NCBI GenBank assembly: GCA_016785955.1 | Contig: JAEUWH010000040.1 | Coordinates: forward strand, 1-62,453 | DNA length: 62,453 bases | From: Pseudobdellovibrionaceae bacterium | Lineage (GTDB): Bacteria; Bdellovibrionota; Bdellovibrionia; Bdellovibrionales; Bdellovibrionaceae | Direction: 5' to 3' | Part shown: positions 310-37,341 of the stretch, one piece after another | How positions within the stretch are numbered: position 1 is the first letter of the stretch | Layout of the letters: every line of letters begins with the position of its first letter | Translations under genes and position numbers: made by a program | The notes under the pieces: generated by a model | Databases searched by the model: none | What the model was told of the DNA's origin: nothing | The model's input: only the letters and a program-made list of their open reading frames with translations

Positions 310-747
310 ATGGTAAAATTTTTGATTATTTCCCTCGTTTCAACAATTGCATTTGCATCAACCGAAGCCATCGATTCAGAATGCCGAATCCAAGCCAAAG
401 AAAAGGCAATAACAACCTATCAGTCTTGCGTAAAGGAAGCCCGTTCTCAAAAAATCGACGAAATCCGCAAAGACTATCAGACTAAACTTCAAGAACTTAA
501 ATCGTATTATGATACAGAGATGAAAAAAATGAGTTCCTCCGCAAAGCCCCTTGAGCGTACTGACGAGTCACCTGTAGCCGAAATTACTTTGAAGAAGAAA
601 GGTAAGGCCGCAAAAAACAGTGGCTTACCGGCAAAAAAGACGCAAGGGAAATCACTCCCCGTAAGAAATATTGAACCCGAAACAGTCACCGCCCCTCTAG
701 AAAGCAGTGACACGGAAATTGTGAATATTGAGGAAAACGCGATCTAA
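310..747 (+). CDS. Small secreted Lys/Glu-rich protein, function unknown
   Basis: This 145-residue protein has an N-terminal signal-peptide-like segment (residues 1-20, ending around AFASTEA). A charged helical part follows (about 25-75) with two cysteines (C25, C40) and likely coiled-coil character, then a low-complexity Lys/Pro/Thr tail. No family was recognised. The start at 310 follows AAAGGATGGG at 294-303. Its stop codon (745-747) directly touches the stop codon of the convergent YceI gene at 748, so there is no room for a terminator between them. A periplasmic or surface location is inferred from the signal peptide. Confidence 0.7.
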   Translation: MVKFLIISLVSTIAFASTEAIDSECRIQAKEKAITTYQSCVKEARSQKIDEIRKDYQTKLQELKSYYDTEMKKMSSSAKPLERTDESPVAEITLKKKGKAAKNSGLPAKKTQGKSLPVRNIEPETVTAPLESSDTEIVNIEENAI

Positions 748-1269
748 TTATTTCTTAGGCTTAACGACGGCCTTCGGCGCAGCCGCGGGACTGCGCTCGA
801 TGGGAACAACCACACGTAAATTAACAGTGTCCTTTACACCAATCCCTTTATAAGAAGCCTTGATATTAAAATCGGCTAAACTCAAATCAAACTTAGCCTC
901 AACTTCTTTATCGTTCAAAGCCTTATAAGTTCCTTTGATTTCTTTTTCCACCCCTCGAATTTTTATTTTGCCTACACCCTTACCGTCTTTTCCCTTACCC
1001 GTTACAAGTACAGCTTCCGGGTATTTGTCTACCTCTAGATATTTATTTTTCATATGATCATCACGCAAATCCATTTTTGAAGTCAGCGTTTTTAAATCCA
1101 CTACAATATTTTGAGCGACATACTCACCATTCTGAACCACAACTTTTCCCTTTACACCCTTAGCCGATGCCGTGAATGTTGGCCCCATTGTCACTTTAAA
1201 ATCCACATCCGCTGTCGGTTCTGCAAATACATATGAACTCACTACCAATAACACGATCAAAACTCTCAT
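748..1269 (-). CDS. YceI-family periplasmic protein
   Basis: From the ATG at 1269 the protein is 173 residues with a signal peptide (MRVLIVLLVVSSYVFA). The YceI beta-barrel pattern follows: VDFKVTMGPTFTASAKGVKG near the start, LRDDHMKNKYLEVDKYPEA in the middle, then KIKIRGVEKEIKGTY. YceI proteins are lipocalin-like periplasmic carriers of isoprenoid lipids. The start is chosen because AGGAG sits just upstream; a longer frame to 1350 lacks this and would bury the signal peptide. It is the last gene of the leftward greA run. The Ala/Pro/Lys tail (AAAPKAVVKPKK) is unusual for the family. Confidence 0.85.
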   Translation of the reverse strand: MRVLIVLLVVSSYVFAEPTADVDFKVTMGPTFTASAKGVKGKVVVQNGEYVAQNIVVDLKTLTSKMDLRDDHMKNKYLEVDKYPEAVLVTGKGKDGKGVGKIKIRGVEKEIKGTYKALNDKEVEAKFDLSLADFNIKASYKGIGVKDTVNLRVVVPIERSPAAAPKAVVKPKK

Positions 1270-1356
1270 AAGCGCTCCTGTTAATTTGAGTATAGCAAAT
1301 GATGAAATAATTAAGAAAGCCCTGAAAAAAATTGTTTGATAATGAAACATGAAATC

Positions 1357-2151
1357 TTATGTTAAGCTGTGGGGAAGTATCGTATCAGAAATAATACTAT
1401 CGACGCCCATGGCGACTAACGTTTTTGCTCTTTCTAAATCATTCACTGTCCACGCCGAAGTCAAAACATGAGAACTCTTCAATTTTGCTATTAACATCGG
1501 GTCGACCATTGAATGTCTAATATTTAGAACATGCGGCTCGATCAAAGGAGCCAGCCACATCCGCCTTAAATAATATAAATTCCATATTTCTGGTTCATCC
1601 GTCACAAGCAACGCCCGTGTCAGTCGAGCATCCAGAAATTTAATCTTTAAAAGAGACCAAGGATTAAAACTTGAGAGCAGGACCAAGTCTGCAGCTCCTG
1701 ACCGATTTATGAGTTCAACAACAGATTCCTCTAAACCAAAGTGAATAAAATTTTTTGATTTAATTTCGATATTCAAAAATTCTGGCCGCTCTTTGGTCGC
1801 TAAAACATCTTTTAATGCGGGAAAATTCGCCAATCGATTTAAATCTTCATACGACATTTCAGAAATTTTTACGTTTAATCGAAATCGATCACTCAACGTA
1901 AAATCATGAAACACCACCGGAATCTTATCTTTCGTAAATTGAACATCGATTTCGGCCATCTTATAGCCTTTTTCTTTCGCAACGGCGAGCGATTCAAAAG
2001 AGTTTTCAACAATTGCATCCTGATGATAACCTCGATGGGCTTGAATCTTCGGCAACAACCAATCATGATTCCAAGCAGAAAACTTGCCTAAACGGATTGG
2101 CCAGTCAGCCCAATCATTTTTTATCGATTTTGAAATTGTCTCGGGTCCCAT
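1357..2151 (-). CDS. Glycerophosphodiester phosphodiesterase family protein
   Basis: The protein is a GDPD-type TIM barrel. HRGYHQDAIVENSFES carries the catalytic His-Arg and Glu-Asn-(S/T) elements, AEIDVQFTKDKIPVVFHDF holds the metal-binding E-x-D and the second catalytic His, and INIEIKSK-like and WTVND motifs follow. Such enzymes hydrolyse glycerophosphodiesters to glycerol-3-phosphate and an alcohol. The start at 2151 is preceded by GGAAGG; longer in-frame starts would run deeper into the upstream gene. Even so it overlaps the 3' end of the AsmA-like gene by 38 bp, which suggests translational coupling. No signal peptide, so probably cytoplasmic. Confidence 0.88.
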   Translation of the reverse strand: MGPETISKSIKNDWADWPIRLGKFSAWNHDWLLPKIQAHRGYHQDAIVENSFESLAVAKEKGYKMAEIDVQFTKDKIPVVFHDFTLSDRFRLNVKISEMSYEDLNRLANFPALKDVLATKERPEFLNIEIKSKNFIHFGLEESVVELINRSGAADLVLLSSFNPWSLLKIKFLDARLTRALLVTDEPEIWNLYYLRRMWLAPLIEPHVLNIRHSMVDPMLIAKLKSSHVLTSAWTVNDLERAKTLVAMGVDSIISDTILPHSLT

Positions 2152-36019: not shown

Positions 36020-36462
36020 AAATTCTCCTCGTGGTAAAATAATCCATTTTGCATATCAGCAATTCGAAGGCCAAAAACTGTCACGTTAGTATTCTTAACC
36101 TAAGTACTCGAATTAAAAAGCGATTGAGTTTGCTTGAAAAATGTTCATGAAATCAAAAACGCATAAAAAAGTGACTGTTTATGATACTGTTTATGAAAAT
36201 TTTTCTTGAACTGATAAAAAATCATAGTACATTGCAAAGCTTCTTCTGACTCTGTGATGAAAGAGCAAAACGCTAGATTCAAAACTAGTGATTTCACTCT
36301 GTTATTTTTTTATAAGCGCCCGAAGAAAGGGGCTTCTTTTTGAAGCCTTAGGTAGACAAAGTTGCTTTTTATGGGCAACCTAGTGGACCGCCTGCTCTTG
36401 ACTTATCTTTTTAAAAATAAAAAGCAGGTCAACAAAGAGCATTTTGAAAATTGAATATAAAT
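36020..36462. other. 443-bp intergenic region before the tRNA
   Basis: No coding frame. It holds the barrel-gene promoter region, the tandem repeat at 36174 and a possible rightward promoter TTGAAC/TACATT (36206-36211, 36228-36233). Two hairpins overlap at 36316-36347: GCCC...GGGC followed by CTTTTTG, and GGCTTC/GAAGCC. A small RNA from about 36240 to 36345 is conceivable but unproven. Confidence 0.35.
36174..36197. repeat. Tandem 12-bp repeat upstream of the barrel gene
   Basis: ACTGTTTATGAT (36174-36185) is followed at once by ACTGTTTATGAA (36186-36197), about 155 bp upstream of the barrel gene start. It may be a binding site, but no function is known. Confidence 0.5.
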
Positions 36463-36829
36463 GGCCCTGTGGTGGAATTGGTAGACGCGCTGGACTCAGA
36501 ACGTCAGTCGAAAAGACTGACACTAAATTGAGTGCCCTTGGAGAAATCCTTGGAGTAGAACCGCCCAAATTCGGTGAAGGCTTTATCTCATAGTGAGATT
36601 GCTAATGCCGAGCCAAGCCTTAGAGAGAAATCTCTTCGGAAGGTGTAGAGACTAGACGAGCGGAACCTAAAGTTAGAAATAACAACGGTTAAGGCATAGT
36701 CCAGACCACAAACTCTCGACATAGAATGTTTCTTAGAAGCAATCTATGCAAGAGCTAGTGAAAACTAGAGTGGTAAGAAAATCCAGTGCCCGCAAGGGCG
36801 TGGGAGTTCGATTCTCCCCGGGGCCACCA
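36463..36829 (+). tRNA. tRNA-Leu(CAA) interrupted by a group I intron
   Basis: Exon 1 is 36463-36497 and exon 2 is 36778-36829, giving an 87-nt mature tRNA. The acceptor stem GGCCCTG (36463-36469) pairs with CGGGGCC (36819-36825), with one G-U pair; discriminator A and an encoded CCA end the gene. The Leu-type D arm reads GTGGAATTGGTAGACGCG. Anticodon stem CTGGA pairs with TCCAG, and the joined loop C-T-C-A-A-A-A gives anticodon CAA. The long variable arm (GCCC-GCAA-GGGC, 36788-36799) fits tRNA-Leu, and the T arm is GGGAG-TTCGATT-CTCCC. The gene interruption falls after C34. A terminator follows at 36905. Confidence 0.93.
36498..36777 (+). ncRNA. Group I self-splicing intron in the anticodon loop
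   Basis: The 280-nt intron lies between anticodon positions 34 and 35, the site used by the cyanobacterial and plastid tRNA-Leu(UAA) intron. P1 is exon ACTC plus AG paired with TTGAGT (36528-36533), with a 7-bp GTCAGTC/GACTGAC extension hairpin at 36503-36521. Core elements are P (36567-36581), Q AATGCCGAGCCAAGCC (36604-36619), R GGTGTAGAGACTAGA (36642-36656) and S AAGGCATAGTCC (36691-36702). P7 pairs GACTA (36650-36654) with TAGTC (36697-36701). P9-type stems include CTAGT-GAAA-ACTAG (36755-36768), and the last base is G. No homing-endonuclease ORF is present. The Q/R/S sequences resemble subgroup IC3; that label is inferred. Confidence 0.92.
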
Positions 36830-36904
36830 TTTGTCAAGGGTCTCGAACGGGCGTCCGCTTGAAAATGTAAAAAATTTTTAGCCCCGATTAGATTCGACTT
36901 AATA

Positions 36905-36936
36905 GCCTCTGAGATTAAAACCTCAGGGGCTTTTTT
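36905..36936 (+). terminator. Intrinsic terminator downstream of tRNA-Leu
   Basis: GCCTCTGAG (36905-36913) pairs with CTCAGGGGC along nine positions (36922-36930, one G-U), followed by six T. It lies about 75 bp after the CCA end, in the correct orientation for the tRNA. Confidence 0.88.
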
Positions 36937-36968
36937 GTTTTTAGGGCCTAGCGTTCGGCCCTTTCCGC

Positions 36969-37128
36969 TATTGTTTTGATTTCGACTGACATCGCTAGAA
37001 AAAGACACAAAAAAAGAGGCGCTAGAGGAATGCTCCCCTAACGCCGATTTGTAGTGAGCTTCGCCCACGTGGAAATGAATTTCAAAACCATCTTTCATGA
37101 TTTCAATTTTATGCACGATCAATTTTAT
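36969..37128 (-). pseudogene. C-terminal remnant of a serine recombinase
   Basis: Reading leftward, the stretch KLIVHKIEIMKDGFEIHFHVG, followed by EAHYKSALGEHSS, resembles the end of large serine recombinases, which often insert beside tRNA genes. The frame is cut by a stop at 37155-37153, and nothing upstream looks like recombinase. The frame remains open leftward across the tRNA, but that part is antisense RNA gene sequence, so the true end is uncertain. Family assignment is by recollection of the C-terminal pattern only. Confidence 0.4.
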
Positions 37129-37341
37129 AATCATGAAATTGGGCACATTATACTAAATCAGCATCACGACCAAGAAGCTGACCATCTTATGAGCGAAGGG
37201 CGAAAAGGTAATAAAATATCAGAAGGTCAGTGCCAGACTGCGCGAAACTTTATTAACAGGCGCTTTAACCAAGAAGAAATAAAACAGGAAGTTTCCACAA
37301 AAATACCTGAAGCAACAGAAGTAGTTCCTAGGGCGAAGTGA
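37123..37341 (+). pseudogene. C-terminal remnant of a zinc metalloprotease
   Basis: Reading rightward, NHEIGHIILNQHHDQEADHL carries HExxH followed by a His-rich, Glu-containing stretch. LMSEGRKGNKISEGQCQTAR then looks like the end of a matrixin-type metalloprotease (H-E-x-G-H ... LM ... Q-x-x-x-A-R). Everything before the motif is missing: the frame left of about 37123 is the antisense of the recombinase remnant. The gene therefore has lost its N-terminal part and probably is not expressed as an enzyme. Confidence 0.4.

Follow-up and report, generated by a model that had tools for sequence, protein, structure and literature searches.

A group I intron in a Bdellovibrionota tRNA-Leu(CAA) gene and its probable link to integrative islands aimed at the anticodon loop

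Both group I introns in tRNA genes of bacteria and integrases directed at anticodon loops have been described before (PMC4033280; PMC8450103; PMC4383910). Self-splicing group I introns interrupt the anticodon loops of proteobacterial tRNA-Ile(CAU) and tRNA-Arg(CCU) genes and of cyanobacterial tRNA-fMet genes (PMC4033280; PMC8450103), and tRNA-targeted islands of the Islander type carry a tyrosine integrase, have their attachment core in the anticodon loop and are marked at their end by a displaced tRNA fragment (PMC4383910). The closest described counterpart of the intron reported here is the group I intron of cyanobacterial and plastid tRNA-Leu(UAA), which likewise occupies the 34/35 site of a leucine tRNA, uses the guide GAG, has a P/Q/R/S core and is small and without an open reading frame (ORF). 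The present introns differ from it in their CAA host, in a C-G instead of a U-G pair at the 5' splice site and in their link to integrase islands. The tRNA-Ile(CAU), tRNA-Arg(CCU) and tRNA-fMet introns occupy other loop positions than 34/35 of tRNA-Leu(CAA), and the present intron lies in another tRNA.

Whereas the usual fragment of an Islander-type island restores the target, both resident halves are orphaned in the islands described below and a complete intron-bearing gene is supplied. In contrast to IStrons, which combine a group I intron with an insertion sequence, the mobile enzyme here is an integrase whose gene lies apart from the intron on the island, and the tRNA gene that harbours the intron is cargo. 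Islands that leave both resident halves orphaned and bring an intron-bearing replacement gene appear to be new, as does the Leu(CAA) site. A literature search found neither a published Leu(CAA) group I intron nor an intron-bearing replacement tRNA on islands, which is weak evidence because subscription papers were mostly outside its coverage.

The interrupted tRNA-Leu(CAA) gene and its intron

We analysed a stretch of 62,453 nucleotides from a Pseudobdellovibrionaceae bacterium (contig JAEUWH010000040.1), referred to here as the window; all coordinates given for it are on the forward strand. When introns were permitted, ARAGORN identified positions 36463–36829 as a tRNA-Leu with the anticodon CAA and a 280-nt intron, while its default setting without introns reported no tRNA anywhere in the window. 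The 5' exon (tRNA positions 1–34; 36463–36497) ends with C32, U33 and C34 (CTC in the DNA) and is 95% identical to the intronless gene of G062, a genome of the same genus. The 3' exon (36778–36829) starts with AAAATCC and encodes the CCA end, and the intron between them (36498–36777) has A as its first and G as its last base. Its removal yields CTGGA-CTCAAAA-TCCAG, i.e. a correct 7-base loop that reads CUCAAAA in the joined RNA, which bears out the original prediction that the tRNA is complete only when 280 nt behind C34 are taken out. The junction is exact because the G062 locus has exactly no 280 nt: its 3' exon and downstream flank are 96.6% identical to the window over 355 bp, with the 5' exon adjoining. 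A terminator-like hairpin with a T run, recognized from the sequence, follows the gene at 36904–36931, and no sigma-70-type promoter match was found upstream of the tRNA.

The search with Rfam family RF00028 matched positions 36514–36712 and covered the entire model (44.6 bits, E=4.5e-10). As this score is below the Rfam gathering score of 50, the intron is missed by a standard Rfam run. We rejected the absence of an intron or tRNA as an explanation of the blank results from ARAGORN without introns and from Rfam at the gathering threshold, both of which are threshold effects. No endonuclease ORF was found in an ORF check of the 280-nt intron.

The predicted structure was assessed in an alignment of 27 introns (that of the window, 12 others of the phylum and 14 from proteobacteria) with P1 to P9 imposed. 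In P1 (36494–36533), exon ACUC and A36498 pair with the guide UGAGU (36529–36533), which places a C34-G pair at the 5' splice site and is supported by guide counts, alignment and covariation. Alignment and covariation also support an extra hairpin within the P1 loop (36503–36521) as well as P9.0 (36706–36709/36770–36773) and the P9 hairpins beside the 3' splice site. The catalytic core comprises P3 (36561–36566/36658–36663), P4 (36570–36574/36608–36612) and P7 (36650–36654/36697–36701) and rests on covariation. The 44 core pairs were standard-paired in 96.3% of cases, and 22 of them had changes on both sides, compared to 24–40% paired and 4–8 double-change pairs when partners were slid by 1–3 columns. 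In 500 shuffles, the paired cells, the double changes and the covariation score always stayed below the observed values, and a chance origin of the core was rejected on this ground. In P7, C-G and U-A pairs are replaced by G-C and C-G in 13 sequences. Together with the full-length RF00028 match and the terminal G, these data confirm that the window tRNA-Leu(CAA) is split behind C34 by a group I intron of 280 nt with the core elements and P7 that had been read from the sequence; the proposed identity of its site with that of the cyanobacterial and plastid intron, in a CAA host, holds as well, since site and guide are shared and the anticodon is called as CAA.

A U-G pair at the 5' splice site is near-universal in group I introns, with exceptions; because such exceptions are known, its absence from the window, where C34-G is found instead, was not counted as excluding group I membership. 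By direct count of the guide motif, TGAG was present in 82/82 distinct CAA 34/35 introns among the matches listed, so that G stands opposite C34 in each of them, and the same guide was found in 17 of the 18 UAA introns listed at 34/35, where it gives U-G. Another 11 introns among these matches occupy the site 33/34, shifted upstream by one base; they were found in CAA genes of alphaproteobacteria, in some UAA genes and on phage contigs. GGGTC is present in these introns, and U33-G is retained. C34 is forced by the host anticodon, so one intron lineage would appear to tolerate C-G and another to have shifted one base earlier. A C-G pair at this site was reportedly described by Hur and Waring in 1995 for fungal mitochondrial group I introns and is said to be rare in nature and able to slow splicing; those introns share the pair but reside in fungal mitochondrial genes, whereas here it marks a whole bacterial tRNA family. 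The C-G pair could weaken splicing, which is itself inferred in the absence of RNA data.

DNA and pattern searches of the own genome detected only this one Leu(CAA) gene, and according to ARAGORN the genes for Leu(UAA), Leu(UAG) and Leu(GAG) in that genome are intronless. An alternative explanation is that the insert is a dead relic, with an unspliced precursor and a tRNA pseudogene, given that C-G replaces U-G at the splice site and that the tRNA-Leu(UAA) present could read UUG by wobble. We regard this as very improbable because neither exon is damaged, the conserved core shows compensatory changes, the C-G pair persists throughout the CAA introns listed and no other gene for this tRNA was detected.

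Distribution and relationships of Leu(CAA) introns

The window alone could not reveal that the CAA site is common in beta- and gammaproteobacteria, that the splice-site pair is C-G or that the locus bears an integrative-element scar. A pattern scan of one genome per species (84,980 species) returned at least 117 stretches, mostly Leu(CAA) introns. The 34/35 intron was present in at least 74 other distinct Leu(CAA) loci outside the phylum, mostly beta- and gammaproteobacterial, in addition to 8 in Bdellovibrionota; carriers among the matches listed include Burkholderia, Bordetella, Acidovorax, Variovorax, Cupriavidus, Rhodanobacter, Steroidobacteraceae and others. Within the class surveyed, 8/144 genomes had the CAA intron, and intronless genes were present in many others, same-genus genomes included. 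The 34/35 site of Leu(CAA) is thus a recurrent group I site and not unique to the window. The original prediction had not known this host tRNA as a standard bacterial group I site.

In the intron tree, whose deeper forks are uncertain, the CAA introns of Bdellovibrionota formed one clade (support 99/93) and those of beta- and gammaproteobacteria another (100/100), both apart from the UAA introns. As the Bdellovibrionota clade mixes host families, it hints that CAA introns may have moved between hosts inside the phylum. Two genomes (G031 and G113) each carry UAA and CAA introns.

Several further arrangements were observed. A related group I intron in G062 (L064, about 1076–1330) is joined to a tRNA-Leu 3' half with loop AG at 35–36 (CAG/UAG isoacceptor), and its 5' exon appears decayed. 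A Burkholderiales MAG (L125) carries introns in neighbouring Leu(UAA) and Leu(CAA) genes, which are separated by about 0.6 kb on the same strand, and tRNA-Leu(UAA) genes with group I introns occur on many virus contigs (L207–L239), some inside tRNA arrays. Genome G060 (contigs C57, C16 and C116) has an intact intronless Leu(CAA) gene at the resident locus, an intron-bearing copy elsewhere and a third copy with a broken acceptor stem, which is either a mixed MAG or a recent island copy.

Integrase islands carrying the intron-bearing tRNA

In beta- and gammaproteobacteria, the intron-bearing tRNA is often carried as cargo by integrase-bearing islands of 25–84 kb that split a resident intronless tRNA-Leu(CAA) in the anticodon loop. 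The crossover core is CTCAAAA; of the two orphans, the 5' half is left upstream of the replacement gene and the 3' half next to the integrase. At least 22 loci have an isolated 5' half of an intronless tRNA-Leu (half-1), ending right after CTCAAAA, at 192–258 nt upstream of the intron gene; half-1 was not seen at about 50 of the 74 beta- and gammaproteobacterial intron loci among the matches listed. In 7 genomes, the contig of the intron gene also holds an orphan 3' half, 25–84 kb downstream and in the same orientation; these orphans start with AAAATCC and are preceded by non-tRNA sequence ending in TCTC or CTC. Their distance was 25.0 kb in Bordetella genomosp. 7, 49.1 kb in Caballeronia, 77.0 kb in Pusillimonas, 72.9 kb in Allopusillimonas and 66.4 kb in Variovorax sp. 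UMC13 and Bordetella ansorpii. Conserved regulatory RNA had been considered as an identity of the upstream half-tRNAs and was dropped after the orphan 3' halves and integrases turned up; no Rfam family matched the spacers between half-1 and the intron gene at the beta- and gammaproteobacterial loci.

In 12 genomes, a homologous tyrosine integrase is encoded no more than about 0.2 kb from the orphan 3' half. Those next to the orphans whose distances are given above have an arm-binding domain; members of this family likewise adjoin the orphan in Burkholderia, Bordetella petrii, Comamonas badia, Acidovorax soli and Polaromonas, and one Comamonadaceae genome has a partial copy where a contig ends. 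Paralogous integrases (60–62%) in the same genomes had no tRNA or Leu half within about 0.6–0.9 kb. Half-1 and the orphan 3' half rejoined to a complete tRNA-Leu(CAA) in each of the five cases tried, and in Caballeronia and Acidovorax the acceptor stems of the two halves match each other and differ from that of the island gene. In Rhodanobacter, the position of the integrase predicted an orphan that the pattern had overlooked; it was present there, completes the genome's own distinct half-1 and delimits an 84-kb island. A tyrosine integrase at one end and a split resident tRNA at both ends are therefore directly observed in the proteobacterial relatives.

The islands of Variovorax and B. ansorpii both measure 66,372 bp between landmarks and were 99.8–100% identical in three sampled stretches (about 7.9 kb), with the identity starting at half-1 and stopping in the orphan 3' half while the flanks differ. 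Such near-identity implies recent movement of the intron-bearing tRNA between two families, and at the level of the DNA compared, inter-family transfer on islands in beta- and gammaproteobacteria is demonstrated. Separately, the island of Bordetella genomosp. 7 encodes DndE and neighbours resembling DndC and DndD. On a gammaproteobacterial contig (G382, C69; L296, L306 and L312), a single intron-bearing Leu(CAA) gene is followed downstream by one orphan 3' half at 11 kb and another at 20 kb, a layout that looks as if elements had integrated in tandem at the leftover core.

The scar at the window locus and its proposed history

At the window locus, a resident upstream flank (36134–36247) is followed by a decayed tRNA-Leu 5' half of 37 nt (36248–36284) ending at a crossover core TTCAAAA (36278–36284), a 178-nt spacer (36285–36462), the intron-bearing tRNA and a resident downstream flank (36830–37132) that is 96.6% identical to G062. 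The upstream flank is homologous to the one that directly adjoins the intronless tRNA in G060, G061 and G062: alignments of flank and half scored 75, 76 and 62, compared to maxima of 36, 42 and 41 in 500 dinucleotide shuffles per comparison, and at most 36 elsewhere in the window. Chance likeness was rejected because the scores exceed all shuffles, and the comparison shows, as far as alignment can, that the resident upstream flank is displaced. The decayed half alone was not significant (score 24, shuffle maximum 26), so the case for a scar rests on its collinearity with the flank. The spacer is read as a remnant of the island's left end by position only, in comparison to the 192–258 nt spacers above.

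Clear half-1 copies precede the introns of three other Bdellovibrionota genomes (G118, CAA; G108 and G113, UAA), and half-1 was found in only 4/13 intron loci of the phylum and at none of the others. Among Bdellovibrionota, we found no Leu(CAA) island in intact form, and G118 had no orphan 3' half. The own genome yielded no orphan Leu(CAA) 3' half, and no island body is present at the window, where the resident downstream flank directly follows the tRNA. That the scar is of the same kind as those of the beta- and gammaproteobacterial islands is inferred by analogy. Elsewhere in the own genome (L273, contig C71), an orphan tRNA-Leu(UAA) 3' half (554–595, minus strand), identical to the 3' half of the intact intronless Leu(UAA) gene, lies near a tyrosine integrase (677–1756, minus strand) and a small helix-turn-helix protein, which may represent a further element with a leucine anticodon loop as its target. 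In G067 (L054, minus strand, 449 and 669), two isolated Leu 5' halves were also seen about 0.8–1 kb upstream of an intronless Leu(CAA) gene.

Instead of arriving on an island, the intron could have reached the resident tRNA-Leu(CAA) directly, through reverse splicing or through gene conversion with a Leu(UAA) or Leu(CAA) gene as donor; the upstream half would then be due to chance or to a partial duplication of its own. This is in line with the intron-free copies that the genus has at this locus, the co-occurrence of UAA and CAA introns in G031 and G113 and the lack of half-1 at other Bdellovibrionota CAA loci. Against it, the upstream flank lies 215 nt away from its resident position and terminates in a half that is collinear up to the crossover core, as in proven islands; within the phylum, the CAA introns group in a single clade separate from the UAA introns, and the intron has no endonuclease ORF. 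We therefore consider direct entry unlikely. Arrival on an island, of an intron now found in the genome's only detected tRNA-Leu(CAA), is as a whole the best explanation and one we hold to be probable, although the separate clades of the Bdellovibrionota and the beta- and gammaproteobacterial CAA introns and the lack of half-1 at most intron loci of both groups speak against it.

By homology, the precursor would fold with exon ACUC and UGAGU forming P1, and guanosine would attack after C34, followed by exon joining to CUCAAAA; these steps are inferred without RNA data. The split gene was most likely delivered as the replacement gene of an integrative island. The tyrosine integrase of that island, whose specificity is inferred, would recombine at CTCAAAA, the anticodon loop of the resident intronless tRNA-Leu(CAA), and cut that gene into two orphan halves. 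As the island would bring a whole tRNA-Leu(CAA) with its loop broken by the intron, the cell would keep the tRNA while the contiguous target is gone from the replacement. In the window lineage, the island body would later have been lost, with recombination of one 3' half with the other as the probable mechanism; the decayed 5' half, the 178-nt spacer and the intron-bearing gene would have stayed behind. The simplest history that we can infer for the window has three steps: an island integrates in the anticodon loop, its intron-bearing gene takes over, and the island body disappears.

Whether the intron serves the island is less certain. It is possible, if rather doubtful, that the islands are real and the intron is a mere passenger in a tRNA captured by an ancestral island, of no use to the integrase. 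Introns lacking any half-1 are common, and the position is that of the cyanobacterial Leu(UAA) intron, for which no island link is known. However, the intron lies exactly within the 7-nt crossover core; half-1 occurs beside intron-bearing genes and not beside the examined intronless CAA genes of the phylum, except for the two TTC halves near the G067 gene, and islands of Leu(UAA) layout in G108 and G113 carry introns too. We consider it possible, at slightly less than even odds, that islands use the group I intron as a target mask, by which the replacement tRNA would be hidden from the island's own integrase and restored only in RNA. Introns would thereby spread between bacterial families without homing endonucleases, and the window gene would have arisen in this way; the masking remains an inference that we do not regard as settled.

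How small ORF-less group I introns spread among bacterial tRNA genes is a long-standing question, and one route is now visible in sequence, as illustrated by the 66-kb island that two families have in common in near-identical form in the DNA sampled. That integrases cut in anticodon loops is a possible reason for introns being there, and intron-broken loops account for tRNA finders missing such genes. The 82 natural introns with a C-G splice-site pair among the matches listed could be used to test why U-G is otherwise kept.
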